Of a stretch of 64,000 nt of DNA, positions 51,384-64,000 are shown piece after piece. This DNA comes from Acerihabitans arboris. GTDB lineage: Bacteria; Pseudomonadota; Gammaproteobacteria; Enterobacterales; Enterobacteriaceae. Location: positions 62,001-126,000 of the forward strand of contig NZ_WUBS01000018.1 in NCBI RefSeq assembly GCF_010131535.1. Direction: 5' to 3'. Every line of letters starts with the position of its first letter. Position 1 is the stretch's first letter. Position numbers and translations under genes: made by a program. A model generated the notes under the pieces. It had not been told where the DNA came from. It saw only the letters and a list, made by a program, of their open reading frames with translations, and searched no databases.

Positions 51384-52415
51384 CTATTTGCCGCCGGCCG
51401 CCAGCAGAGTATGCAGCGATTTTGCGTCGTAGTCGGCCGGCACGGTGATTTTGCCGCTGATGATGTCGTCACGCACGACATTAACGCTTTTCCAGATGTC
51501 ATCCGGAATATGCGAGGTTTTCAGCAGGCTGATCGAGCCGTCGGCCAGCGAGGTTTTGTAGTTGTGCGAACCGAACTTATCCTGCTTCAGGTCTTCGATC
51601 ATGGCGGTGTAGACCGGCGTCAGGTTCCATAAGACGGAACTGAGCAAGTTCCCTTTGTCGATCGGGGACTTGTCGCCGATGACGTCGATAAAATAGACTT
51701 TGCCGCCGTCCGGCGCCGGCGTGGTTTCCACCGCCTGCAGCATGCCGAAGCTCGAGCCGTTGCCCTGGCCAAAGATAATATCCGCGCCGGCGGCGATAAC
51801 GGAGGCCGCCACGCGTTTACCGCCCGCGGCGTCGCTGTACGCCGCCGGGCCAATCACCGCATAGCGGATTTTGATATCGCCCCTGGCCGCCCGGGCGCCG
51901 CGGATAAAGGCCGAGGACTGCGCGTTCCAGGACGGCGGTTCGCCGGAAACCACGATGCCGATGGTGCCGCTGCGCGACATTTTTGCCGCCAGGGTGCCGG
52001 CCAGGTAGGCCCCTTCCTGGCCGCTTACCGTGTAATCGGCCACTTTACCGGCTTTTAACGAGGACGGGCTGTCGGTAATGGCCACCGGCACGTTGGCCTG
52101 GGCGCCGATTTCCGGTCCCGACTGGTTATAGCCGCTGGCATGGGCAATGATCAGCTGCGCCCCGTCTTCCGCCAGGTCGCGCAGCGTGGGGCGGATATCG
52201 CCATAGCCGAGGTTATCCGCCACCATGACCTTGACGCCTTCTTTGGCGCCGGCTTCCCTGGCGGCGTTGATGCCCTGTTGGTTCCAGCCGAAATCGGTGC
52301 CGGGTTCGGGGGTGACTATGGCTATTGCCTTGATATCAGCGGCATAGGCCGCTGAGCACAGCACCGACATTACCGACATCGCGGCGGCGTATTTTAACCA
52401 ACTTTTCACCATCAT
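51384..52415 (-). CDS. BMP-family periplasmic substrate-binding protein
   Basis: A 343-residue receptor with a signal peptide (cleavage near SAAYAADIKA) and the BMP/Med fold: VTPEPGTDFGWNQQGINAAR near the start, a LIIAHASGYNQ turn, and FGQGNGSSFGMLQAVE (about 225). The substrate cannot be read from sequence. Its operon is divergent from a unit containing a pyridoxamine-pyruvate aminotransferase homologue, so a vitamin B6-like or amine substrate deserves consideration besides nucleosides. Confidence 0.87.
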   Translation of the reverse strand: MMVKSWLKYAAAMSVMSVLCSAAYAADIKAIAIVTPEPGTDFGWNQQGINAAREAGAKEGVKVMVADNLGYGDIRPTLRDLAEDGAQLIIAHASGYNQSGPEIGAQANVPVAITDSPSSLKAGKVADYTVSGQEGAYLAGTLAAKMSRSGTIGIVVSGEPPSWNAQSSAFIRGARAARGDIKIRYAVIGPAAYSDAAGGKRVAASVIAAGADIIFGQGNGSSFGMLQAVETTPAPDGGKVYFIDVIGDKSPIDKGNLLSSVLWNLTPVYTAMIEDLKQDKFGSHNYKTSLADGSISLLKTSHIPDDIWKSVNVVRDDIISGKITVPADYDAKSLHTLLAAGGK

Positions 52416-52511
52416 GTTCTGTCCTCGGTAAATTTTATTGTTGACATTGCGGCTGATAAAATCTTTTCTGGTGCATTCCGATCGGGTGTGGCGCGTTAAC
52501 AGGGGCAGTAA

Positions 52512-52955
52512 ATGAAATCACGGGGGCTAGTATTGTCCTGTTTGTTTTTTTTCACCACCGCAATCTGCGCTGGGGAATCAACAAACTATCAACGCGGTAC
52601 GCATGGCCTAACCCCTTTTTCGGTGGTGGTAACAAACACCGGTCAGGTCCCTTTGGATTGTGAAGCGACCACCGCCCATTGGTACTCGGTCCCGCTGGGC
52701 GGCATCGCCCCCGGCGCAACCCTGTCCACCGGGCTATGGAAAAATGTCGGCGGCGGCGAGGTGGTTATCTTAAACAGTCAGCAGGATCGGATGCCGGTCC
52801 AGCGCCTCTGGTGCGGCGAGGAAGGCCGGTCCTGGCAGACCCGCCGCGAGGTTGCCCTGTCGACGCGCGGCGGGGAGAAGCCGTTATCCATCGCGCTCGA
52901 CTGCGCCGGCGGCGCGGGTCGGATCCTGTGCCGGCCGGCGCCTGGCGGTCTTTGA
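52512..52955 (+). CDS. Small secreted protein of unknown function
   Basis: A 147-residue protein with a clear signal peptide (MKSRGLVLSCLFFFTTAICA, then GES). The mature part is about 127 residues with four Cys that could form two disulfides (VPLDCEATTAHWYSVPLGGI, QRLWCGEEGRSW, ALDCAGGAGRILC). I do not recognise the family. It is divergent from the BMP receptor gene across 96 bp and heads a plus-strand unit with a decayed gene and the aminotransferase, so a periplasmic role linked to that uptake/catabolic unit is possible. Confidence 0.65.
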   Translation: MKSRGLVLSCLFFFTTAICAGESTNYQRGTHGLTPFSVVVTNTGQVPLDCEATTAHWYSVPLGGIAPGATLSTGLWKNVGGGEVVILNSQQDRMPVQRLWCGEEGRSWQTRREVALSTRGGEKPLSIALDCAGGAGRILCRPAPGGL

Positions 52956-52961
52956 CAACCC

Positions 52962-53320
52962 CATGATGATGCTGTTTTCACCCGAACAGGAGCAGATCCT
53001 GAAAGCCGATACCCGCATGCCGCTGGCGGTGGAACCGCCGAAATGCTGTTGCGCCTGCTGCCCGCCCGCGCCGATAAGCGGCGGGCGATGGCGGCCACCG
53101 CCTGTTTGCGGCGCGCGCCATGACAGTTACCTCGGCGGCCGGCACTGCGCGCGCGGGGAGTATCCGGTGCTGACCCAGCACGGCTATTCCGGCGTGGCGG
53201 GCAAAGGGGACCACTGGCCGGGCTGCTTTGTCGCCACCTGGCCGGACGAGTTTACTATCGGGAAAGCGTGCCCATGCCGTATTCTCCGCACCGCGCCGCT
53301 CCCCGGATCCAAGAGAGAGA
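52962..53320 (+). pseudogene. Decayed coding sequence between the secreted protein and the aminotransferase
   Basis: No intact gene fills this 365-bp gap, but stretches with strong GC3 bias look like broken protein: MLFSPEQEQILKADTRMPLA in one frame from 52965, EMLLRLLPARADKRRAMAAT in a shifted frame (ending in TGA at 53121), and RHCARGEYPVLTQHGYSG with GDHWPGCFVATWPDEF again in the first frame. This fits one gene disrupted by at least two frame changes. The family was not recognised. Confidence 0.4.
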
Positions 53321-54493
53321 ATGATGAAAAACGCAGGCAACGACCCTCTGTTTACCCTGACCACCGGCCCGGTGGACGCCTATCCGGCGGTATTGCGCGC
53401 GCTGTCGATGCCGGTCTGGTACGACTACGATCCGGCGTTCCTGGCCTGCTTTGAACGGGTCAGCAGGAAAGCGGCGGCCGCGATGCGGACCGAGTCCATC
53501 CCGCTGATTTTGCAGGGAGAACCGGTGCTGGCGCTGGAGGCGGCGGCGGCCTCGCTGATTGCCCGCCACGATGTGGTGCTGAACCTGGTGTCCGGGGTGT
53601 ATGGCGCGGGTTTCGGCGACTGGGCCGGGCGATACTGCGCCACGGTGCGGGAGTTGGCCGTCGCGTATAACGAGGCGCTGGATCCGGCGGTGGTTGACCG
53701 GGAATTACGGCGCCATCCGGAGATCGGCATCGTCTGCCTGTGCCACCACGACACGCCGTCCGGCACGTTGAATCCCGTCGATGAGATTGGTTGCGTTGTC
53801 AAACGCCACGGCAGGCTGTTTTTGGTTGACGCGGTGTCCTCGTTCGGCGGCATGGCGGTGACGCCGGACAGCTGCCGCGCCGATATCTTTATCACCGGTC
53901 CGAATAAATGCCTGGGATGCCCGCCGTCGTTAAGCCTGGTGGCCGTAAGCGAAGGGGGATGGCGCAAAATCAAGGCCAACCCCGATGCGCCGCGCGCCTC
54001 GGTGCTCAGCCTGCTGGACTGGGAACGGGCCTGGCTGGCCGACGAGCCGTTTCCTTATACCCCGTCGGTGGCGGAGATCAACGGCCTGGAGGCGGCGCTG
54101 GACGGCTATCTCGGCGAGGGTCCGGAGCAGGTCTGGGCGCGGCATGACCTGACCGCCAGGGCATTTCGCGCCGGACTGCGGGCGATGGGACTGTCGTTAT
54201 GGGCGGCGCGGGAATCCATCGCCTCGCCCACCGCCACCGCGATCCGCGTACCCGAAGGGGTCGACGAAGCGCAATGGCGCGCCCTGGCGCGGGAACATTA
54301 CGGCGTGATGTTTTCCTCCGGGCGCGGCGAGACGCTGGGCAAGGTGATGCGGGTCGGCCATATGGGGCCGACCGCCAGGCCGCTGTATGCCGTCGTTGCC
54401 CTGACGGCGCTGGGCGGGGCGCTTAACCGGCTGCGCGCCGGGCGGGTGGATGTGGGCACCGGCGTCAACGCCGCCATGGCGGTTATCGGCTGA
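53321..54493 (+). CDS. Pyridoxamine-pyruvate aminotransferase homologue
   Basis: A 390-residue class V (fold-type I) aminotransferase that closely follows, over its whole length, the pyridoxamine-pyruvate transaminase of Mesorhizobium loti as I remember it. Shared blocks include [66 protein letters not shown] and [13 protein letters not shown] Lys196 is in ITGPNKCLG, Asp170 in LVDAVSS. In M. loti the enzyme makes pyridoxal from pyridoxamine in vitamin B6 degradation; no other B6-degradation gene is visible here, so the substrate could differ. ATG 53321 follows AAGAGAGAGA; ATG 53324 is adjacent. The 3' end overlaps the convergent hydrolase by 11 nt. Confidence 0.85.
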
Positions 54494-55403
54494 GGGCGGT
54501 TTCCCCGGCGGCCAGATGCCGGGCGAGGAACGTCTCCACCACCCGCATGCAGGCGTCGCGTTCCTCGACGTGGGGCATATGGCTTGATTGCTCGAATATC
54601 ACCCATTCCGCCCCGGCGATTTGGTCTTTGAACGGTTGCACCACTTCCGGCGCCGCCTCGTCGAAGCGGCCGGAAATCAGCAGCGTCGGCGCCTGGATGC
54701 GCGCCAGCCGGTCGATAATGTTCCAGGATTTCAGGGTGCCGATAACATGGAATTCCGTTGGGCCGTTCATGGCATGGTATACCGTCGGGTCGGCGTCCAT
54801 CGCGTCGAAGGTGCGCCTGACCTCCGCCGGCCAGGGCGTAAGACGGCAGACGTGCCGCTGGTAAAAAACCCCGGTGGCCTGGCGGTAGGCGTCGCTGCCG
54901 ATGGTGCCCGCGGCCTCGTGCTTTAGCAAACAGCGTTGCACCGCGGGCGGCAGCTGCGCGCGCAGCCTGGCCGCCGCCTGTAGCCACAGTTCCATTGACG
55001 CCGGCGAATTGGCAATCACTATCGCCTTCAGGCCGGCGGGGCGCAGCACCGCGTGCTCAGCCGCCAGCATCCCGCCCCATGACTGCCCGAGCAGCGCGTA
55101 GTTGTCCTCGATGCCAAGGTGCGCCAGCAGGTTATCCAGCTCCGCCAGGAACAGCGACACCTGCCAGAACGCGGCGCCCTGTTCCGGCAGATGGGTGGAG
55201 CGCCCGTTGCCGAGCTGATCGTAATGGATTACCGCCCGGCCGCCCCGGGCGATATCGCGAAACGCGTCGACATAATCATGGGTGCAGCCCGGGCCGCCGT
55301 GGGCCACCACCAGCGGCGTCTTGCCGTTGTGGAGATCGCCGCAGACGCGGTACCAGGTTTGGTAGTGTTGAAACGGCGCATAGCCTTCGGTGATGCTGTA
55401 CAT
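54483..55403 (-). CDS. Proline iminopeptidase-type alpha/beta hydrolase
   Basis: A 306-residue cytoplasmic alpha/beta hydrolase of the prolyl aminopeptidase (S33) group. It has the oxyanion motif HGGPG (35-39), nucleophile Ser108 in GQSWGG, Asp248 in SGRFDEA and His275 in SSHMPHVEE, i.e. a full triad. Such pip genes are the classical neighbours and targets of plant-responsive LuxR solos. Here it is directly downstream of a LuxR solo on the same strand, with a lux-box-like dyad 60-79 bp upstream of its ATG. Its natural substrate could be a proline-terminated peptide or an amide signal. Confidence 0.87.
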
Positions 55404-55462
55404 GACGGTTTACCTGTCGGTTAAGGATAACCTAGGGTAAAACAGCGCGCCCGGCGGCGGAT

Positions 55463-55482
55463 AGCTAGAGAAAATGCTAGGT
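55463..55482. promoter_or_regulatory. lux-box-like dyad upstream of the iminopeptidase gene
   Basis: A 20-bp element of the form ANCTAG-N8-CTAGNT, which fits the NNCT-N12-AGNN pattern of LuxR-type boxes. On its minus strand it is identical at 17 of 20 positions to the element at 56417-56436. It lies between luxR and the hydrolase start. Confidence 0.7.
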
Positions 55483-55514
55483 ATTGCGCCGGCAACGCGA
55501 TTGACCGGCCGGGC

Positions 55515-56264
55515 TCAGCCGTCGAGCAAACGGTAATGCATCGCCCTTACCACCGCCTGCACGCGGTTGCTGGCTCCCAGCTTACGCGCCGCGGAATTCA
55601 GGTGCAGCGTCACCGTGGCAATCGAGCGCGACAGTTTGCGGGCAATTTCCTTGGCGGTCAGCCCTTCCGCGGACCAGCTCAGGCACTCCCGCTCGCGTTT
55701 GCTCAGGCGCACATACTGGCAGGTCAGCATCTGGCGGTCGAACAAGGGATAAATCCGTTCCTGGAAGGTATGGGCCAGCAGGCTTAACTCCGCCAGCGCA
55801 TGGGCAAGGTCGCGCTCACGGCCGCTGCCGCTGACGATGCCGGTTACGGTGACAAATCCGCCCTGGGGCAGGTGCAGCGGCACCGTGGCGCCGCAGGGCA
55901 TATTATTATCACGCATATAGTGTGTCACCGGCCGGTGTCTTTCACCAATAATGTCGCGCAGCGATGAGCTGTCCGGGCGCTGATATGACCAGACGAAGGG
56001 CGCGCAGCTCCCGAGGGCGTAGAGCTGGACCGGATCCACCTGGTAGTATCCGCTTTCACACCATAACCGCCGCATATCCTCCGGCACGTTGCTCATGCGC
56101 AGTATCGACGGGGTGATCAGTTCCCCCTCCAGCGAGCGCGGGACCGGCGTGTAATCATAAATCAACGCCTCCATGCCCAGCCGGGCGCCTTGCCGGAACA
56201 ATGATGAAAAGGCCTGGTCAAGGCCGTCGTCCGGCTGCGGGGTGGTATTCACGACCCTATTCAT
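55515..56264 (-). CDS. LuxR solo of the plant-responsive (OryR/PipR/XccR) type
   Basis: A 249-residue LuxR-family regulator: autoinducer-binding domain about 15-165, GerE helix-turn-helix about 185-245 (LSKRERECLSWSAEGLTAKE). Aligned to TraR, the conserved pocket residues are D77-P78 (=D70,P71), W92 (=W85) and G125 (=G113). W57 is replaced by Met64 and Y61 by Trp68 (segment EDMRRLWCESGYYQVDPV). The Met/Trp pair is the known hallmark of plant-associated LuxR solos, which respond to plant or ethanolamine-derived compounds rather than acyl-homoserine lactones. Start ATG 56262-56264 has GAGG 8 nt upstream. No luxI gene is in the window. Confidence 0.9.
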   Translation of the reverse strand: MNRVVNTTPQPDDGLDQAFSSLFRQGARLGMEALIYDYTPVPRSLEGELITPSILRMSNVPEDMRRLWCESGYYQVDPVQLYALGSCAPFVWSYQRPDSSSLRDIIGERHRPVTHYMRDNNMPCGATVPLHLPQGGFVTVTGIVSGSGRERDLAHALAELSLLAHTFQERIYPLFDRQMLTCQYVRLSKRERECLSWSAEGLTAKEIARKLSRSIATVTLHLNSAARKLGASNRVQAVVRAMHYRLLDG

Positions 56265-56416
56265 CAGGCTTACCTCGAAATAAAACGTCCGCGTCACCAG
56301 GGCATGGATCCTGCAAAGCCCTTCCTTTGTCGCAATCCGCAATCTTGAAAACAACACAGAGACAATCTGCAGGCATGCAATTTGGATGCCACGGGACGGC
56401 CATGCCCGGACAGCAA

Positions 56417-56436
56417 ACCTAGCATTTTTACTAACT
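56417..56436. promoter_or_regulatory. Second lux-box-like dyad, between luxR and the dpp-like operon
   Basis: A 20-bp element beginning ACCTAGCATTTT and ending CTAACT; it matches the reverse complement of 55463-55482 at 17 of 20 positions. It lies 152 bp upstream of the luxR start (minus strand) and 84 bp upstream of the first codon of the plus-strand unit, so it could serve either or both. Confidence 0.65.
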
Positions 56437-56520
56437 GTTCAGCACCGCGGCTTATGCGTAGCGTAAGGGCATGATCAGGGTGGCGAAGCACGGCCGCCGG
56501 CAAAGCACCGGGGGGGATGT

Positions 56521-56805
56521 ATGTGGAGTGAAATCAAGCCTGGCCGGCAACAGGATATCGAGGTCGACGGCTATCGGGCGGCGGCCTATGAGTTCGGCGC
56601 GGGCGACGAGGCGGCCTTGCACCATCCGGGTGCGGCAAAGCGCCTGAACCTGGAAAATACCGTGGCGGATATGCCTCACCCGATCCGGGAACTCCACCGC
56701 CCGCGCGCCGCGCCGGGACAGGAAGCCGTGGCGATGCCGCCGCGGCATGAAGCCATGGGCACCCTGGGGCATCCGGCCCGTCAGCGCAACAGCGGCAGGG
56801 GGTAA
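56521..56805 (+). pseudogene. Truncated proline-iminopeptidase remnant at the head of the dpp-like operon
   Basis: A 94-codon open frame. Only its first ~32 residues (MWSEIKPGRQQDIEVDGY, then RAAAYEFGAGDEAAL) look like a protein family: the N-terminus of proline iminopeptidases, which would continue into the HGGPG motif. Instead the sequence breaks off into unrelated, unconserved residues and lacks the whole catalytic domain. I read it as the start of a second pip gene joined to other DNA by deletion. It may still be translated and lead into the permease gene 5 nt later. Confidence 0.5.
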
Positions 56806-56810
56806 CGGCG

Positions 56811-57749
56811 ATGCACCGCTACCGATTTGTCCTGTTTCGTCCGTTACAACTGGTGCCGGTATTGCTGGGCATCAGCCTGATCACCTTTATGCTGGTGCGC
56901 GCCATCCCGGGCGATCCGGCCCGTATCCTGCTGGGCGTGCGCAGCACCCCGGCGGCGATTGCGCGCATTCGCGCCCAGTATGCGCTGGACCAGCCGCTGT
57001 GGGTGCAGTACGGCTATTTTCTCAATAACCTGCTGCACGGCGAGCTGGGGCGCTCCATCGTCTATCGCATCGATACCTTAAAGCTCATCATGACCCGGAT
57101 TGAACCCACGTTGTGCCTGGTGCTGGGCAGCGTGCTGCTGGCGCTGTTGCTGACCGTGCCGCTGGCCGCCGCCGCCGCCCGCCGCCGGGGACGCTTCGCC
57201 GATCGGGCCATCCGGCTGCTCTCCACCGCCGGGCTGGGTTTTCCGGCGTTCTGGCTCGGCATCATGATGATCTTATTGTTCAGCGTCACCCTGGGCTGGT
57301 TCCCGGTCTCCGGTTATGGCGATACCTGGGGCGAACGGCTGCATCATTTGGCGTTGCCCAGCCTGACGGTGGCGCTGGCGCTGTCGGCGGTGCTGACCCG
57401 CAACCTGCGCGCCAGCCTGCTGGCGGAACTGAAAGCGGATTACGTTACCGCCGCCCGGGCGCGCGGCCAGGAGGAGGGGCGGATTTTCTGGCGTCATGCC
57501 ATGCCCAACTCGCTGGTGCCGACGGTGAACCTGCTGGCGGTGAATATCGGCTGGCTTATCGGCAGCACGGTGGTGATTGAAAGCGTTTTTGCCATCCCCG
57601 GCATGGGACAGCTGCTGGTCAAGGCGATTTTCAGCCGTGATTACATGGTGGTGCAGGGGGTGGTGATGGTGTTTGCCCTGGCGACGGTGGCGGTGAACCT
57701 GCTGGCCGATCTGCTGACGGTAGCCTTGGACCCGAGGGTAAAACTATGA
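56811..57749 (+). CDS. Peptide/nickel-family ABC permease, DppB-like
   Basis: A 312-residue inner-membrane permease with six segments. It has the DppB/OppB N-terminus (LGISLITFMLVRAIPGDPA, then RAQYALDQPLWVQYGYFL) and the coupling loop AELKADYVTAARARGQEEGR (about 205-224). It is the first intact gene of a five-gene importer (B-C-D-F-A order) on the plus strand next to the LuxR solo. The stop overlaps the next start by 4 nt. Confidence 0.88.
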   Translation: MHRYRFVLFRPLQLVPVLLGISLITFMLVRAIPGDPARILLGVRSTPAAIARIRAQYALDQPLWVQYGYFLNNLLHGELGRSIVYRIDTLKLIMTRIEPTLCLVLGSVLLALLLTVPLAAAAARRRGRFADRAIRLLSTAGLGFPAFWLGIMMILLFSVTLGWFPVSGYGDTWGERLHHLALPSLTVALALSAVLTRNLRASLLAELKADYVTAARARGQEEGRIFWRHAMPNSLVPTVNLLAVNIGWLIGSTVVIESVFAIPGMGQLLVKAIFSRDYMVVQGVVMVFALATVAVNLLADLLTVALDPRVKL

Positions 57750-58591
57750 TGCCCGGCCACGCCGCAAGACGTTTTTCCATACGCTGGCTGCAGCGCCGCG
57801 CGGCGCTGCGCGCGGGCGTCATTATCCTGCTGATCGGGTTTTCGCTGGCGCTGCTGGCCCCTTGGCTGGCGCCCTTTGATCCGCTGTTCCAGGATGCGGA
57901 CGCGCGCCTGATGGCGCCTGGCCTGCCGCACGTGTTCGGTACCGACAACTTCGGCCGCGATATCTTGTCGAGGATTATCTGGGGCGCGCGCGTCGATTTG
58001 CAGATCTGCCTGCTGGGCGTGGTGTTTCCGTTTGCCATCGGCACCATCGTCGGGGCGTTGTCCGGTTATCTCGGCGGCCCGATCGATGCCTTTATCATGC
58101 GCTGCATCGACATTGTGCTGGCATTTCCATTTCTGGTGCTGATGCTGTCGATCATCGCCATTATCGGGCCGGGACTCGGCAGTTTTTATATCGCCATGGC
58201 GCTGGTGGGCTGGGTATCCTACGCCCGGCTGGTGCGCTCGCAGGTGCTGATCCTCAAGCACAGCGACTTTATGCTGGCGGCGCGCAGCCTGGGCTTTAGC
58301 CATGCGCGCATCCTGTTCGCCCATTTGCTGCCCAACGCCCTGACCGGCTCGATCGTATTTTCCATGTCGGACTGCGTGCTGGTGCTGCTCAACGGCGCGG
58401 CGGTGAGTTATCTCGGCCTGGGCGTGCAGCCGCCGGCGGCGGAATGGGGGGTGATGATCGCCGAAGGGCAGAGTTTTATCACCACCGCCTGGTGGATCAC
58501 CGCCTTTCCGGGCCTGGCCATCGTACTGCTGGCGATGGGGTTCAGCCTGCTGGCCGACGGCCTGGGCGATATGCTGGGGGAACGGCCATGA
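57746..58591 (+). CDS. Peptide/nickel-family ABC permease, DppC-like
   Basis: A 281-residue permease with the DppC/OppC features HVFGTDNFGRDILSRIIWGA (about 54-73) and coupling loop HSDFMLAARSLGFSHARILF (about 171-190). It overlaps the DppB-like gene by 4 nt and the DppD-like gene by 4 nt. Start ATG 57746. Confidence 0.88.
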   Translation: MMPGHAARRFSIRWLQRRAALRAGVIILLIGFSLALLAPWLAPFDPLFQDADARLMAPGLPHVFGTDNFGRDILSRIIWGARVDLQICLLGVVFPFAIGTIVGALSGYLGGPIDAFIMRCIDIVLAFPFLVLMLSIIAIIGPGLGSFYIAMALVGWVSYARLVRSQVLILKHSDFMLAARSLGFSHARILFAHLLPNALTGSIVFSMSDCVLVLLNGAAVSYLGLGVQPPAAEWGVMIAEGQSFITTAWWITAFPGLAIVLLAMGFSLLADGLGDMLGERP

Positions 58592-59583
58592 GCGCGCCGT
58601 TGCTGCGGGTCAACCACCTGGCCGTCGCCAACCGCCAGGGCACGGCGTTGGTGGATGATGTCTCCTTTACCCTGGCGGCGGGTGAAATGCTCGGCCTGGT
58701 CGGTGAAAGCGGTTCGGGCAAAACCGTCACCTGCCGGGCGCTGATGCGCCTGCTGCCCGGCGAGGGATTAACCCTGGCCGGCGGCGAGGCCTGGCTGGGC
58801 GGGACCGATATCATGACCCTTGACCAGCGGCAGATGACCCGGGTGCGCGGCCGCCAGCTGGGCATGATTTTCCAGAATCCCGCCAGCCATCTTAACCCGG
58901 TGATGACCATCGGCGGGCAAATAGCCGAAAGCCGTAGCGCCCATTTCGGCGCGGGACGGCGGGAGGCGCGGGCGGCGGCCGTCGCCCTGCTGCGCCAGGT
59001 GGGCATCCCCGATCCCGAACGGCGGGTGGGCCACTATCCGCATGAATTCTCCGGCGGCATGCGCCAGCGGGCGATGATCGCCGTGGCGCTGGCCTGCGAA
59101 CCCAAAGTCCTGATTGCCGACGAGCCGACCACCGCGCTGGACGTGACGGTGCAGGTACAGATCCTGCGATTGTTGATGAGCCTGCGCGACCGGCTTGGCC
59201 TGGCTATCATCATGATCACCCACGATCTGGGCGTGGTGGCGCAAACCTGCGACCGCATCGCGGTGATGTACGGCGGCCGGCTGTGTGAAATCGGCGATAA
59301 ACGCCAGATGCTGGCGCGGCCGCTGCATCCCTATACCCAGGGATTAATCGACTGCCAGCCGGTGAGCGAGGGCGGCAACGGCCGCTTAAAAACCATTCCG
59401 GGTCAGCCGCCGTCGGCGGATGGATTCCCGCCGGGCTGCCGGTTCCATCCCCGCTGCATGCGGGCCGGGGAGGCTTGTCCGTCGCGGCAGCCGCCGATGT
59501 TGCCCGCGCGGGACGATGCGGCGCACGGCGCGGCCTGTTTTTATCCTTTGCAATCGTTATCCCACCGGGAGGGGCAATGGTAA
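58588..59583 (+). CDS. Peptide/nickel-family ABC ATPase, DppD-like
   Basis: A 331-residue ATPase: Walker A GESGSGKTV (about 38-46), Q-loop IFQNPASHLNPVMTIG, signature FSGGMRQRAMIAVALA, Walker B VLIADEPTTALDVTVQ, H-loop THDLGVVAQ. The C-terminal oligopeptide-transporter domain (PLHPYTQGLIDC, PPGCRFHPRC) has the usual Cys residues. ATG 58588 is chosen because it gives the family start and overlaps the permease stop (ATGA). Confidence 0.9.
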   Translation: MSAPLLRVNHLAVANRQGTALVDDVSFTLAAGEMLGLVGESGSGKTVTCRALMRLLPGEGLTLAGGEAWLGGTDIMTLDQRQMTRVRGRQLGMIFQNPASHLNPVMTIGGQIAESRSAHFGAGRREARAAAVALLRQVGIPDPERRVGHYPHEFSGGMRQRAMIAVALACEPKVLIADEPTTALDVTVQVQILRLLMSLRDRLGLAIIMITHDLGVVAQTCDRIAVMYGGRLCEIGDKRQMLARPLHPYTQGLIDCQPVSEGGNGRLKTIPGQPPSADGFPPGCRFHPRCMRAGEACPSRQPPMLPARDDAAHGAACFYPLQSLSHREGQW

Positions 59584-60587
59584 ATAACGCTTGGCCGTTA
59601 CTTGAAGTCGATGAGCTGCGGGTCTCGTTCCCGCTGTCCGGCGGCAACCCCTTTAGTTGGAACCGGCCGCGGATCCAGGCGGTGAACGGCGTATCGCTGC
59701 GCATCCATCCCGGCGAAACCCTGGGGCTGGTGGGAGAATCCGGCAGCGGTAAAAGCACCCTCGGCCGCGCCATCCTGCAACTGGAAAAAAGCACCGGCGG
59801 CAGCGTGCGTTTTGACGGCCGCAACATCACCCACGGCCTGTCCAGCGATATCGCCCGCCTGCGCCAGCAAACGGCGATGATTTTCCAGGATCCGTTTTCA
59901 TCGCTCAATCCCCGCCAGACCATCGGCGCCGGTATCGCCGAAGTGCTGCGCGTGCACCATAAAGTCCCGCCGGCGGCGATAGCGGCCCGGGTCGCCGAAC
60001 TGTTGACCCTGGTGGGTTTGCAGCCCGCGCAGGCGGATAAGCGGCCGGGCGCCCTGAGCGGCGGGCAGTGCCAGCGGGCGGGTATCGCCCGCGCGCTGGC
60101 GCTGGAACCGCGCCTGATGGTGGCGGATGAATGCGTCGCCGCGCTGGATGTGTCCATCCAGGGACAGATTATCAATCTGCTGATGGACCTGCGCGAACGC
60201 ATGGGGCTGGCGATATTGTTTATCGCCCACGATCTGGCCATCGTCCGCCGCCTGTGCGATCGGGTCGCGGTGATGTACCTGGGACGCATTGTCGAGGAAG
60301 GTCCGGTGGAACAGGTGTTCCGTTTGCCGCGCCATCCTTATACCGCGGCGCTGGTGGCGGCCATTCCGGAAATCAATCCCGATCTGCCGCTGCCCGCCGA
60401 CCCGCTGGCCGGCGAACCGCCCAGCCCGATTGCCATACCGCCGGGGTGCGCCTTTCACCCCCGCTGCCGTTATGCCCGACCGTCTTGCCGTACCGGTTCC
60501 ACCCCTGATACCCGGCTTGTTGCCGACCATGCTTTTGCCTGTGTGCTGGACAGAAATACCGGCGAAGCCGACCTTCCTTTTGAATGA
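59577..60587 (+). CDS. Peptide/nickel-family ABC ATPase, DppF-like
   Basis: A 336-residue ATPase: Walker A GESGSGKST, Q-loop IFQDPFSSLNPRQTIG, signature LSGGQCQRAGIARALA, Walker B LMVADECVAALDVSIQ (ADEC where ADEP is usual), H-loop AHDLAIVRR, and the C-terminal PPGCAFHPRC motif. ATG 59577 sits behind GGGAGGGG and overlaps the DppD-like stop by 7 nt. Confidence 0.9.
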   Translation: MVNNAWPLLEVDELRVSFPLSGGNPFSWNRPRIQAVNGVSLRIHPGETLGLVGESGSGKSTLGRAILQLEKSTGGSVRFDGRNITHGLSSDIARLRQQTAMIFQDPFSSLNPRQTIGAGIAEVLRVHHKVPPAAIAARVAELLTLVGLQPAQADKRPGALSGGQCQRAGIARALALEPRLMVADECVAALDVSIQGQIINLLMDLRERMGLAILFIAHDLAIVRRLCDRVAVMYLGRIVEEGPVEQVFRLPRHPYTAALVAAIPEINPDLPLPADPLAGEPPSPIAIPPGCAFHPRCRYARPSCRTGSTPDTRLVADHAFACVLDRNTGEADLPFE

Positions 60588-60599
60588 GGTGTGTTAACT

Positions 60600-62114
60600 A
60601 TGAAGCGTAAGCATTTTAACGTTGTCGCCGCCGGAGCATTGCTCGCCATCAGCGCGGCCGGCCAGGTTGCCGATGCCGCCGGGGTATTAAGCATCGGCCG
60701 GCGCGAGGACAGCACCACCTTTGACCCGATCAGGTCGGCGCAAAACGCCGATAACTGGGTGTTCTCCAATGTGTTCGACGTATTGGTGCGGGTGGATAAA
60801 AACGGCACCCGGCTGGAGCCGGGACTGGCGGAAAGTTGGGAAATCTCGCCGGACGGCAAGGTGTACACCTTTAAGATACGCGACGCCAAATTCTCGGACG
60901 GACAGCCTGTGACCGCGCAGGATGCGGTGTTCAGCCTGTTGCGCATCCGCGATAACCAAGGTTCGTTATGGCGTGACTCCTATAGCGTTATCGACAAAGC
61001 CGAAGCGCCGGATCCCCATACCCTGGTGGTGACCCTGAAGACGCCGTCCGCGCCGTTCCTGTCGCAACTGGCCCTGCCGAATGTGTCGATACTGCCGGAG
61101 AAAGTGGTAAAAGCCATGGGCGAGGAAGCCTTTGCCGAAACACCGGTGGGTTCCGGCGCGTTCAGCGTCAAATCCTGGACCCGGGGCGAAAAGGTGGTAC
61201 TGGTGAAAAACCCCTATTTCTGGCAGGCGGGCCGCGTCAAGCTGGACGGCGTGGAGTGGCTGACGCTGCCCGACGACAATACCCGCATGCTGAAAGTGCA
61301 GGCCGGCGAGCTGGACGCCGCGCTGTCGGTGCCGTTCTCGCGCATCACCTCGTTGCAGCAGGATCCCAACCTGGAGGTGCATCTCGATCGCTCCACCCGC
61401 GAGGATCACCTGCTGATTAACCACGAGCACGGCGCGCTGGCCAAAGCGGAGGTGCGCCAGGCGCTGGACTTCGCCATCGATAAAAAGGCCATTGTCGATA
61501 CCGTGACCTTCGGTTTCGGCCATGTCGCCAACGCCTATATCCCCGAGGGCGCGCTGTTCCATTACGCGGACAACCTGCGGCGTCCGTACGATCCGGAAAA
61601 GGCCAGACGGATGCTGCAAGCGGCCGGCGCGGCCGATTTGAAGCTTAACTATGTGGTCAACGCCGGGGATGAGGTGGATGAGCAGATAGCCATATTGCTG
61701 CAACAGCAACTGGCCAAGGCCGGGGTCGGGGTCAACCTGCAAAAGGTCGACCCGAGCCAGAGCTGGGATATGCTGGTGGCGGGCGAGTATGATATTTCGG
61801 TCATGTACTGGACCAACGATATTCTCGACCCGGACCAGAAAACCACCTTTGTGCTGGGGCATGACGCCAATATGAACTACATGACCCGCTATCATAACGA
61901 CAAGGTCAAGGATTTGGTGGCCGCGGCGCGCGTGGAAATGAACGTCGGCAAACGGCAGCAGATGTATGTCGACCTGCAAAAAATGGCCAAGGCGGACGTG
62001 AACTGGGTCGATTTATACTATAGCCCGTATCGCAACGTCAGCCGCAAGAACATCAAGGATTTTTACCAGAATCCGTTGGGACGCTTCGCGCTGGAAGATA
62101 CCGACAAATTATAA
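60600..62114 (+). CDS. Periplasmic peptide-type substrate-binding protein, DppA-like
   Basis: A 504-residue SBP family 5 protein with a signal peptide (KHFNVVAAGALLAISAAG, cleavage near ADAAGVLS). It has the typical segments DPIRSAQNADNWVFSNVFD, LAESWEISPDGKVYTFKIRD and RPYDPEKARRMLQAAG. Members bind peptides, opines, nickel or amide signals. In the PipR-type systems the receptor of the adjacent importer is needed for response to the plant signal, so this protein may bind the LuxR ligand or its precursor. ATG 60600 has GAGG 10 nt upstream. Confidence 0.88.
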   Translation: MKRKHFNVVAAGALLAISAAGQVADAAGVLSIGRREDSTTFDPIRSAQNADNWVFSNVFDVLVRVDKNGTRLEPGLAESWEISPDGKVYTFKIRDAKFSDGQPVTAQDAVFSLLRIRDNQGSLWRDSYSVIDKAEAPDPHTLVVTLKTPSAPFLSQLALPNVSILPEKVVKAMGEEAFAETPVGSGAFSVKSWTRGEKVVLVKNPYFWQAGRVKLDGVEWLTLPDDNTRMLKVQAGELDAALSVPFSRITSLQQDPNLEVHLDRSTREDHLLINHEHGALAKAEVRQALDFAIDKKAIVDTVTFGFGHVANAYIPEGALFHYADNLRRPYDPEKARRMLQAAGAADLKLNYVVNAGDEVDEQIAILLQQQLAKAGVGVNLQKVDPSQSWDMLVAGEYDISVMYWTNDILDPDQKTTFVLGHDANMNYMTRYHNDKVKDLVAAARVEMNVGKRQQMYVDLQKMAKADVNWVDLYYSPYRNVSRKNIKDFYQNPLGRFALEDTDKL

Positions 62115-62338
62115 CACCCGGATCGCTTGGCCGGGCTGCGCAGGTCCGCAGGCCGGCCCGCGGCGTCGCCCAGGCGCTGGCGCTTTGCACCTGCAGGCGT
62201 CATGGCATGCTCAAACCCACTCTTTGTGCACCAAAAAGGGGCGCCCCGTTATTTTTAACGCCGCCAACGCAGTGCATTAACCGCCGGCGCGGCGCTTTTA
62301 TCAGCGCGACAGCCTCATTTAGCCGCCGCTCGCCGATG

Positions 62339-62354
62339 TGGTATGACCTTTGCA
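62339..62354 (+). promoter_or_regulatory. Candidate sigma-54 promoter of eat-eutB
   Basis: TGGTATGACCTTTGCA matches the -24/-12 consensus TGGCACG-N4-TTGCW with GG and GC exactly 10 nt apart and two mismatches. The predicted start lies about 24 nt upstream of the permease ATG. The 275-bp spacer (62115-62389) also contains the 10-bp direct repeat CTTTGCACCT (62183-62192 and 62348-62357). In Pseudomonas the eat-eutBC operon is known to need a sigma-54 activator. Confidence 0.6.
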
Positions 62355-62389
62355 CCTTTACAAATACTTACGCAGCATAGGACATCGTC

Positions 62390-63775
62390 ATGCAAAACAG
62401 TAAAGTGGCACCGGTTTTAAAACGCACTCTGGGGAGTTTCCATTTATGGGGGATTGCCGTCGGCCTGGTGATTTCCGGCGAATATTTCGGCTGGAGCTAC
62501 GGCTGGGCCCAGGCGGGCACGCTGGGGTTCCTGGTGACGGCGGTGGCGGTGGCGGCGATGTATTGTGCCTTTATCTTTAGCTTTACCGAGCTGACGACCT
62601 CCATCCCCCATGCGGGCGGCCCCTTTGCCTACGCCCATCGCGCCTTCGGTCCCACCGGCGGGTTTATTGCCGGTTTTGCCACCCTGGTGGAATTTGTCTT
62701 TGCCCCGCCGGCGATTGCCATGGCGATCGGCGCCTACCTGAACGTCCAGTTCCCGGCCGTTGAGCCGCGCTGGGTGGCCCTGGCCGCTTATCTGGTGTTC
62801 ATGACGCTGAATATCCTCGGCGTCGGCATCGCCGCCGCCTTCGAACTGCTGGTCACGCTGTTGGCGATATTTGAACTGCTGGTGTTTATGGGCGTGGTGG
62901 CGCCGGGCTTCGAGCTGGCAAACTTTACCCGCGGCGGCTGGGCCGGCGCGGAACACTTCAGCATCGGCGCGATTTCCGGCATTTTCGCCGCCATCCCCTT
63001 CGCCATCTGGTTTTTCCTGGCGATCGAAGGGGCGTCAATGGCGGCCGAAGAAGCCAAAGACCCGCAGCGCACCATTCCCCGCGCCTTTATCGGCGGCATC
63101 CTGACCTTAACGGTGCTGGCGTTGGGCGTCATGGTCTTTGCCGGCGGGGTAGGCGACTGGACCAAACTGGCCAATATCAACGATCCGCTGCCGCAGGCGA
63201 TGAAAATTATCGTCGGCGGCAACAGCGGCTGGCTGCATATGCTGGTCTGGCTGGGGCTGTTCGGGCTGATTGCGTCGTTCCACGGTATCATCATGGGTTA
63301 CTCGCGGCAGATTTTCGCCCTGGCGCGCGCCGGCTACCTGCCGAAACCGCTCTCCCGGGTTAACCGCCGGTTCCGCACGCCGCACCTGGCGATTATTGCC
63401 GGTGGAGTGGTGGGCGTCGCGGCGATTTTCTCCGACTCGCTGATCATTATCGGCGGGCAGCCGTTAACCGCCAATATCGTTACCATGTCGGTATTCGGCG
63501 CCATAGTCATGTATATTATCTCCATGGCGTCGCTGTTTAAGCTGCGTCGTCTGGAACCGAAACTGACCCGCCCGTTCCGCGCGCCGCTGTATCCGTTCGC
63601 CCCGGCGCTGGCGTTGGTGATGGCGGTGATTTGCCTGGTGGCGATGATTTATTATAACCAACTGCTGTTTATGATTTTCGCCGTGATGATGCTGTTGGGT
63701 TATGCCTACTACCGCCTGACGCGCTATGCGCGCGACGCGGCGGCGCACGATCCGCAGCTGACGTTATCGGAGTGA
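62390..63775 (+). CDS. eat: Ethanolamine permease (APC family)
   Basis: A 461-residue inner-membrane amine transporter with about 12 segments. The N-terminus (LGSFHLWGIAVGLVISGEYF, GWSYGWAQAGT) and FSFTELTTSIPHAGGPFAYA fit the Eat family of APC transporters found next to eutBC in Proteobacteria without a microcompartment. It imports ethanolamine for EutBC. It is 13 nt upstream of eutB, with GGAGGG between them, so the two form one operon behind the sigma-54-like site. Confidence 0.88.
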   Translation: MQNSKVAPVLKRTLGSFHLWGIAVGLVISGEYFGWSYGWAQAGTLGFLVTAVAVAAMYCAFIFSFTELTTSIPHAGGPFAYAHRAFGPTGGFIAGFATLVEFVFAPPAIAMAIGAYLNVQFPAVEPRWVALAAYLVFMTLNILGVGIAAAFELLVTLLAIFELLVFMGVVAPGFELANFTRGGWAGAEHFSIGAISGIFAAIPFAIWFFLAIEGASMAAEEAKDPQRTIPRAFIGGILTLTVLALGVMVFAGGVGDWTKLANINDPLPQAMKIIVGGNSGWLHMLVWLGLFGLIASFHGIIMGYSRQIFALARAGYLPKPLSRVNRRFRTPHLAIIAGGVVGVAAIFSDSLIIIGGQPLTANIVTMSVFGAIVMYIISMASLFKLRRLEPKLTRPFRAPLYPFAPALALVMAVICLVAMIYYNQLLFMIFAVMMLLGYAYYRLTRYARDAAAHDPQLTLSE

Positions 63776-63788
63776 TCCCGGAGGGTCG

Positions 63789-64000
63789 ATGTTTCAAGCC
63801 ACGCTGAGTCATCGCAGCTACCGCTTTGCCGATTTGCGAGAACTGATGGCCAAGGCATCGCCGGCGCGCTCCGGCGATTATCTGGCCGGGGTGGCCGCCG
63901 CCAGCGCCGAGGAGCGCATGGCGGCGCGCATAGCGCTGGCGGCGGCGCCGCTGCGGGTATTTTTGCAGCAGCAGCTTATCCCCTATGAAGAGGATGAGGT
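63789..64000 (+). CDS. eutB: Ethanolamine ammonia-lyase large subunit, N-terminus only
   Basis: The frame runs off the window after 70 codons. The visible part (YRFADLRELMAKASPARSGD, then YLAGVAAASAEERMAARIAL) matches the start of EutB, the adenosylcobalamin-dependent lyase that splits ethanolamine into acetaldehyde and ammonia. With eat directly upstream and no shell-protein gene in between, this is the short, non-microcompartment type of ethanolamine pathway. eutC is expected just outside the window. Confidence 0.9.
   Translation, partial: MFQATLSHRSYRFADLRELMAKASPARSGDYLAGVAAASAEERMAARIALAAAPLRVFLQQQLIPYEEDE

Follow-up and report, generated by a model that had tools for sequence, protein, structure and literature searches.

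We analysed a 64,000-nucleotide stretch of the Acerihabitans arboris genome (the window; positions 62001–126000 of contig C10, NZ_WUBS01000018.1; genome size 5.64 Mb), whose end carries a Pip/LuxR-solo cassette beside an ethanolamine-catabolism locus. The minus-strand genes pip and luxR are followed on the plus strand by an aapA remnant, the importer genes aapB, aapC, aapD, aapE and aapF, and then eat and eutB (Table 1). The contig holds full-length copies of eutB and eutC (L002 9789–11162 and 11343–12188), and downstream of them, outside the window, come a gene resembling phosphopantetheinyl transferases, marR, a gene for an outer-membrane factor, emrA and emrB; these five and eutC were named by reading the sequence. 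The original prediction placed a LuxR solo, pip, a peptide-type importer, an ethanolamine permease and an ammonia-lyase here, and family models confirm all of them, with eutB partial in the window and eutC beyond it. The gene order likewise bears out that eat-eutBC directly follows a Pip/PipR-type module. Both modules are of known kinds and the locus is best read as their joining in one lineage; no description of pip and a LuxR solo beside eat-eutBC was found in the open-licence literature searched.

Table 1. Features of the Pip cassette and the adjoining ethanolamine locus (window coordinates)
Feature	Position	Strand	Evidence
pip, proline iminopeptidase-family hydrolase, 306 residues, open frame intact	54483..55403	-	TIGR01250 262 bits; PDB 7a6g 462 bits (closest solved structure)
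LuxR-type box upstream of pip	55459..55482	-	Recognisable in 6/6 aligned genomes; zero-mismatch site; matrix score 34.8
LuxR solo, OryR/PsrR/PipR (PAB) subfamily, 249 residues	55515..56264	-	PF03472 (Autoind_bind) and PF00196 (GerE); pocket M64/W68
LuxR-type box upstream of aap operon	56417..56440	+	Zero-mismatch site; matrix score 33.8
aapA remnant (second peptidase), internally deleted and truncated	56521..56805	+	Pieces 66% over 50 residues and 72% over 61 residues against the G001 gene
aapB-like ABC permease	56811..57749	+	PF00528 (BPD_transp_1); 94% to G001
aapC-like ABC permease	57746..58591	+	Peptide/nickel permease models, scores under their cut-offs
aapD-like ATPase	58588..59583	+	PF00005 (ABC_tran) and PF08352 (oligo_HPY)
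aapE-like ATPase	59577..60587	+	PF00005 and PF08352
aapF, periplasmic binding protein	60591..62114	+	SBP_bac_5; 69% identical to AapF of Pseudomonas GM79 (PDB 7kz8/7kz9)
TGCACC, possible NtrC half-site (weak)	62186..62191	+	Offset common to G001, G005 and G003; not G004 or G002
TGCACC, possible NtrC half-site (weak)	62227..62232	+	Core GCACC in 7/7 aligned upstream regions; full TGCACC at offset in G000, G001 and G003
Sigma-54 -24/-12 element of eat, TGGTATGACCTTTGCA	62339..62354	+	Offset 50-51 in 6/6 genomes of the genus
eat, ethanolamine permease	62390..63775	+	TIGR00908 643.6 bits (cut-off 381.75)
eutB, ethanolamine ammonia-lyase large subunit, cut by window end	63789..64000	+	PF06751, N-terminus

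The closest solved relative of the aapF product is AapF of GM79 (765 bits over 477 aligned residues). The PAB rule described in PMC3909224 is a change of TraR Y61 to W, with W57 to M in the OryR type; M64 and W68 of the window LuxR correspond to M/W at TraR 57/61 and follow this rule. No member of the luxI family turned up in the scan of neighbouring proteins, to which the luxI search was limited. The ethanolamine genes have the make-up of a short eut locus: eat, eutB and eutC run in one direction without microcompartment genes beside them, the downstream genes being read from sequence.

The two halves carry different control signals. Comparisons were made across a near group of seven genomes, comprising six of the genus (the window genome, G000, and congeners G001–G005) and one further family member, G033. 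The 24-base LuxR-type box upstream of pip has a sister upstream of aapA or aapB. A search of the whole genome with CTAGCANTTNNNCTAR returned two zero-mismatch sites, upstream of pip and of the aap operon, and two further sites with one mismatch, neither of them at eat. On a box matrix, the third-best place in 72 kb after these two sites scored 8.4, and the best score upstream of eat was −2.4 (boxes 30–37; shuffle median −0.5); scanning found no LuxR box upstream of eat in any of the six genomes of the genus. A public scan of genome contigs returned 318 relatives of the window LuxR. Among the best 80, four of which belong to genomes used to build the matrix, the pip-side box scored at least 12 in 75, and the aap-side box did so in 32 of 79, a low count that probably arises from different boxes in Pseudomonas. 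Stretches upstream of eutB were collected from 40 carriers of the cassette (20 of 23 Enterobacterales and 20 others), 38 of them usable and one with 95 bases only. None of the 38 had a LuxR box scoring at least 12 within 500 bases upstream of eat, or upstream of eutB in the 10 where eat is absent just upstream; a single stretch, L173, held a box scoring 14.0 about 1.8 kb upstream of eat. LuxR-box predictions thus make shared LuxR control of eut in the carriers unlikely.

The eat gene has a promoter element of its own. TGGTATGACCTTTGCA lies 50–51 bases upstream of the eat start in G000, G001, G002, G004 and G005, TGGTACGTCCTTTGCT occupies this position in G003, and G033 has a similar sigma-54 element by alignment. 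The element is kept in G002, which has no cassette, and in G003, whose cassette is elsewhere; 13 of 1800 letter shuffles reached its score. Eight genomes from other genera of the family yielded nine eat homologues. The four that precede eutB all have a sigma-54 element within 104 bases, and the five without eutB in their 1.5-kb flanks have no such element. Among the eut stretches of the carriers, an element scoring at least 10 was present in 20 of 38, 19 of these falling among the 20 Enterobacterales; the one Enterobacterales exception is Hafnia, which has no eat upstream of eutB, and most Pseudomonas carrier loci have no sigma-54 element reaching 10 upstream of eut. LuxR control of eat was rejected, there being no box and the sigma-54 element being kept without the cassette.

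The linkage of the two modules is confined to a few genomes. Across the near group, eutB is present in 7/7 (split in G033), an aapF orthologue in 6/7 and a LuxR orthologue in 6/7, and aap adjoins eat in four of the six cassette-bearing genomes (G000, G001, G005 and G004). In G004, luxR and pip lie on a separate contig whose end holds an aapA piece. The cassette and eat are on different contigs in G003, with both neighbourhoods visible, and are about 250 kb apart in G033. The G033 genome looks to be decaying, with its Pip cassette and eut locus both in many pieces and a completeness of 49% at 5.1 Mb. In G002, vitamin-B6 transport genes face eat with no clear cassette trace between them: alignment of G002 with G005 runs up to L035 3423 = L054 11394 and resumes at L035 11732 = L054 11604, so that the site measures 210 bp in G002 and 8.3 kb in G005, between flanks 88–90% identical. 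Among the best 80 of the 318 loci, aapF is present in 78, of which 75 reach at least 2 kb past aapF; eat, eutB or eutC (above 45% identity) lies nearby only in L071, a contig of the congener G001, while L072, a G004 contig, ends before aap. A plasmid scan gave 153 records with a LuxR match, and five plasmid regions (Rahnella, K. variicola, two Rhizobium and Aureimonas) had no eut genes annotated within 12 kb on each side. The original prediction had held a lack of co-conservation of the blocks in related genomes to speak against it, and this is the pattern found, with the block in one of the best 80 loci, one congener without the cassette at the site, and one congener and one decaying family member with it elsewhere. 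Adjacency as proof of coupling was accordingly rejected.

The phylogeny of LuxR bears on how the modules came together. In a quick IQ-TREE analysis of 52 of 85 rows (leaving out most further Pseudomonas rows and a duplicate of G003), the LuxR proteins of the four linked genomes group in a single clade (SH-aLRT 99), and the LuxR of G003 falls within a Klebsiella/Kosakonia/Mangrovibacter clade (SH-aLRT 100). These separate clades indicate that the genus probably acquired cassettes at least twice, once beside eat. The most likely history is a single entry, in the ancestor of four of the six sampled genus genomes, between the vitamin-B6 transport genes and eat, the state of G002 suggesting gain rather than loss. 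Pip cassettes were also observed on large plasmids, L067 (K. variicola NZ_CP103421.1, typed conjugative, with insertion sequences nearby) and L066 (Rahnella NZ_CP089920.1), and such plasmids are a possible route of spread.

Taken together, these results favour with good confidence two separate modules lying side by side, a PAB LuxR-solo/Pip cassette and a short eat-eutBC locus, each predicted from its promoter to be regulated separately. In such an arrangement, the AapB-F importer would take in a small effector of plant origin, peptide-like or amide-like in nature, as in the model for GM79 (PMC4981722). The LuxR solo would sense the effector and activate pip and the aap operon through the two LuxR-type boxes, and Pip could hydrolyse the effector or a relative of it, damping the response. 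A sigma-54 promoter of its own would drive eat-eutBC, with nitrogen control probably exerted by NtrC, as in Klebsiella. The neighbours thus look like one circuit yet carry separate control signals, which tempers an attractive idea: the original prediction of an integrated sensor-catabolism circuit is not supported, as eat has no LuxR box upstream and the same sigma-54 promoter with or without the cassette.

Several observations weigh against a clean separation. Its regulatory side is read from promoter motifs, and the reversed CTAGCANTTNNNCTAR control matched 33 and 43 times with at most one mismatch (76 in all, against 4 for the pattern), so the rarity of LuxR-box sites partly reflects the rarity of CTAG in this genome. 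The TGCACC half-sites upstream of eat are weakly compatible with NtrC, and full NtrC palindromes are not among them. A terminator scan between aapF and eat found one weak stem (0.9 expected by chance), and RNA folding of this gap was no better than that of shuffles; with no convincing terminator or fold, transcription may run on from the aap operon into eat. The G002 gap gives aapD-like matches at two places, only 16 and 26 residues long (E-values 0.03 and 0.06), which we took as chance. Finally, of the 45 carrier genomes searched, 44 have eutB somewhere, a higher share than would be expected of two unrelated modules.

A rival that concerns history alone is that the cassette is ancestral at the site, G002 having lost it cleanly and G003 having lost it while holding another copy elsewhere. 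The site common to the four linked genomes and the intact flanks of G002 agree with this; however, the G002 gap holds no clear remnants, the LuxR of G003 belongs to another clade, cassettes occur on plasmids, and the cassette-eat block was not seen outside the genus among the best 80 of 318 loci. We regard this history as rather unlikely, and if true it would leave the regulatory conclusion unchanged.

A less probable rival is metabolic coupling without shared regulation, in which an ethanolamine amide, HEHEAA for instance, would enter through the importer and be split in the cell by Pip, and EutBC would use the freed ethanolamine. Pip is a prolyl-type peptidase and the secondary amine of HEHEAA resembles that of proline, making HEHEAA a putative substrate. 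This scheme is compatible with most of the separate-modules explanation, the halves being apart in most carriers and together in the window's genus. Of the 80 loci, 45 were represented in the eutB search by their genomes (23 from Enterobacterales, 20 from Pseudomonas, one from Salinicola and one from a Rhizobiales isolate), the congeners, G033 and a further 31 not being included; all 23 Enterobacterales carriers have eutB at 80–88% identity, and the sole miss is Salinicola, with a cassette and no eutB match. At whole-genome level this co-occurrence favours the original prediction; adjacency is local to the genus. In a sample of the family, some eutB was found in 118 of 391 genomes and a high-identity type (at least 79%) in 72 (two partial), spread over 23 of 147 genera. 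All eight mapped carrier genera (seven by identical coordinates, plus the window's genus) lie within those 23, with a random-draw value of about 1e-7 for 147 genera or 4e-6 for an assumed 95 free-living genera, although genera are not independent. G006 of carrier genus g2 has neither the window-type LuxR nor eutB. The 69% identity of AapF to a HEHEAA binder and the over-response of GM79 peptidase mutants, consistent with destruction of the signal by the peptidases (PMC4981722), also fit the coupling. On the other side, eutB occurs without the cassette in G002, further members of carrier genera also have eutB, G435 and G457 have eat-eutB and no window-type LuxR, Salinicola has the reverse, and the LuxR pocket type is unlike that of PipR. 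Ancestry or an overlapping plant-associated lifestyle could explain the overlap. Given eutB without the cassette and the non-independence of genera, we assign the co-occurrence low weight. The large searches scored the best few candidates per genome, making their counts lower bounds; a class sample (369 genomes; one carrier) and an order sample (394; two carriers), the window genome included, at thresholds of 1e-30 and 1e-50, held too few carriers for a contingency test.

Since no LuxR box precedes eut in the 38 carriers, any functional association between cassette and eutB would more probably lie in metabolism than in a shared regulon. Extended, this would make Pip cassettes the uptake arm of a signal-to-nutrient pathway whose parts are dispersed, leading from plant ethanolamine amides to free ethanolamine for EutBC, and would explain why cassettes are kept in genomes with a short eut locus, the meeting of the halves in the window's genus being a step towards one operon; we hold this to be improbable. 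The pattern itself is testable, as Pip cassettes in the searched carriers occur almost only in eutB genomes, and bears on the identity of the Pip effector and the role of Pip. A single circuit in which LuxR also controls eat-eutBC is suggested by the direct adjacency on the strand of aapB-F and the absence of a convincing terminator upstream of eat, but with no LuxR box upstream of eat in the six genus genomes or of eat/eutB in the 38 carrier loci, and an own sigma-54 element that the cassette-free congener G002 keeps, it is very improbable.

Each module has known counterparts. The cassette resembles the PipR/PipA/AapA-F system of Pseudomonas sp. GM79 in gene set and in layout, with pip and luxR divergent from aapA and the other importer-operon genes (PMC4981722). 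The GM79 system is likewise described with a LuxR-type site upstream of pipA and a potential one, of small effect, upstream of aapA. The likeness to PipR in the original prediction holds for the module as such and for AapF; it fails for the pocket and for aapA, since the window has M/W instead of the W/W of GM79 PipR and, with aapA a remnant, does not have both peptidases PipA and AapA. Nor was eat or eut found in the flanks examined at any of the 49 Pseudomonas loci compared. Further counterparts are the Kosakonia PsrR locus and related loci in Klebsiella, Rahnella and Brenneria, which share a LuxR 69–79% identical, the M/W pocket, importer, pip and similar boxes, but have no eat or eut in the flanks examined. 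In the OryR/XagR/XocR loci of Xanthomonas, too, a PAB LuxR solo occurs together with pip, and close by lies an APC superfamily transporter that is reported up 12-fold on XagR overexpression; they differ in being described without a linked ABC importer (PMC4981722). An amino acid transporter is likewise placed beside xocR and near oryR in PMC4399327.

The ethanolamine half shares the eat-eutB-eutC order and the sigma-54 promoter with the short eut loci of Klebsiella pneumoniae, P. aeruginosa and Acinetobacter, which differ in having no Pip cassette directly upstream. The K. pneumoniae locus is described as having no regulator gene of its own and being driven by NtrC and RpoN (PMC11101070), and a regulator gene was not found beside the window eut locus either. 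The P. aeruginosa locus differs by an adjacent eatR, and its control is attributed to RpoN and EatR, which senses acetaldehyde (PMC5821096).

Pocket type also informs the likely ligand. Among 85 aligned rows, residues at TraR 57/61 are M/W in 36 (Enterobacterales, Salinicola and Rhizobiales isolates) and W/W in 49, the Pseudomonas rows; among the best 80 of 318 matches, the window LuxR is 61–90% identical to those from Enterobacterales and 50–57% to those from Pseudomonas. PipR of GM79 is reported to respond to HEHEAA, an ethanolamine derivative that AapF binds (PMC7301841, PMC10134790). A PsrR-dependent Kosakonia pip promoter is reported not to respond to HEHEAA, ethanolamine or rice root macerate, its authors allowing for assay failure (PMC7301841). 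The M/W pocket and this lack of response make HEHEAA itself doubtful as the ligand of the window LuxR, which likely senses something related to HEHEAA but not necessarily that compound.

Loss or decay of the second peptidase gene extends to several members of the near group. In G001 and G005, an aapA gene encoding about 300 residues, 36–37% identical to pip, separates luxR from aapB. The window pieces, which the original prediction does not mention, correspond to about residues 2–51 and 131–191 of the G001 frame, both falling in a single 94-codon frame that lacks the nucleophile region and at least the C-terminal third. In G004, the aapA pieces lie on two contig ends and the gene looks decayed; the G003 gap gives a single aapA match with an E-value of 0.1, and the G033 gap, at about 310 bases, is too short for aapA.

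On its other side, the cassette adjoins vitamin-B6-related genes (51384–54493) encoding a B6-type BMP binding protein (NF047927), an ATPase and permeases. A pyridoxamine-pyruvate transaminase gene (NF046070) ends at the 3' end of pip, and was not found at the corresponding place in G001, G004, G005 or G002. The record NZ_SZPQ01000030.1 (L085), carries the name Martelella alba BGMRC 2031, nominally that of an alphaproteobacterium, yet it seems to be the same as G003, which is placed in the window's genus; its name or assembly looks wrong. At the contig end (L002 17969–18461) lies a frame of roughly 40-residue repeats with GKWP motifs, which presumably resemble the SKWP-type repeat proteins of plant-associated bacteria.

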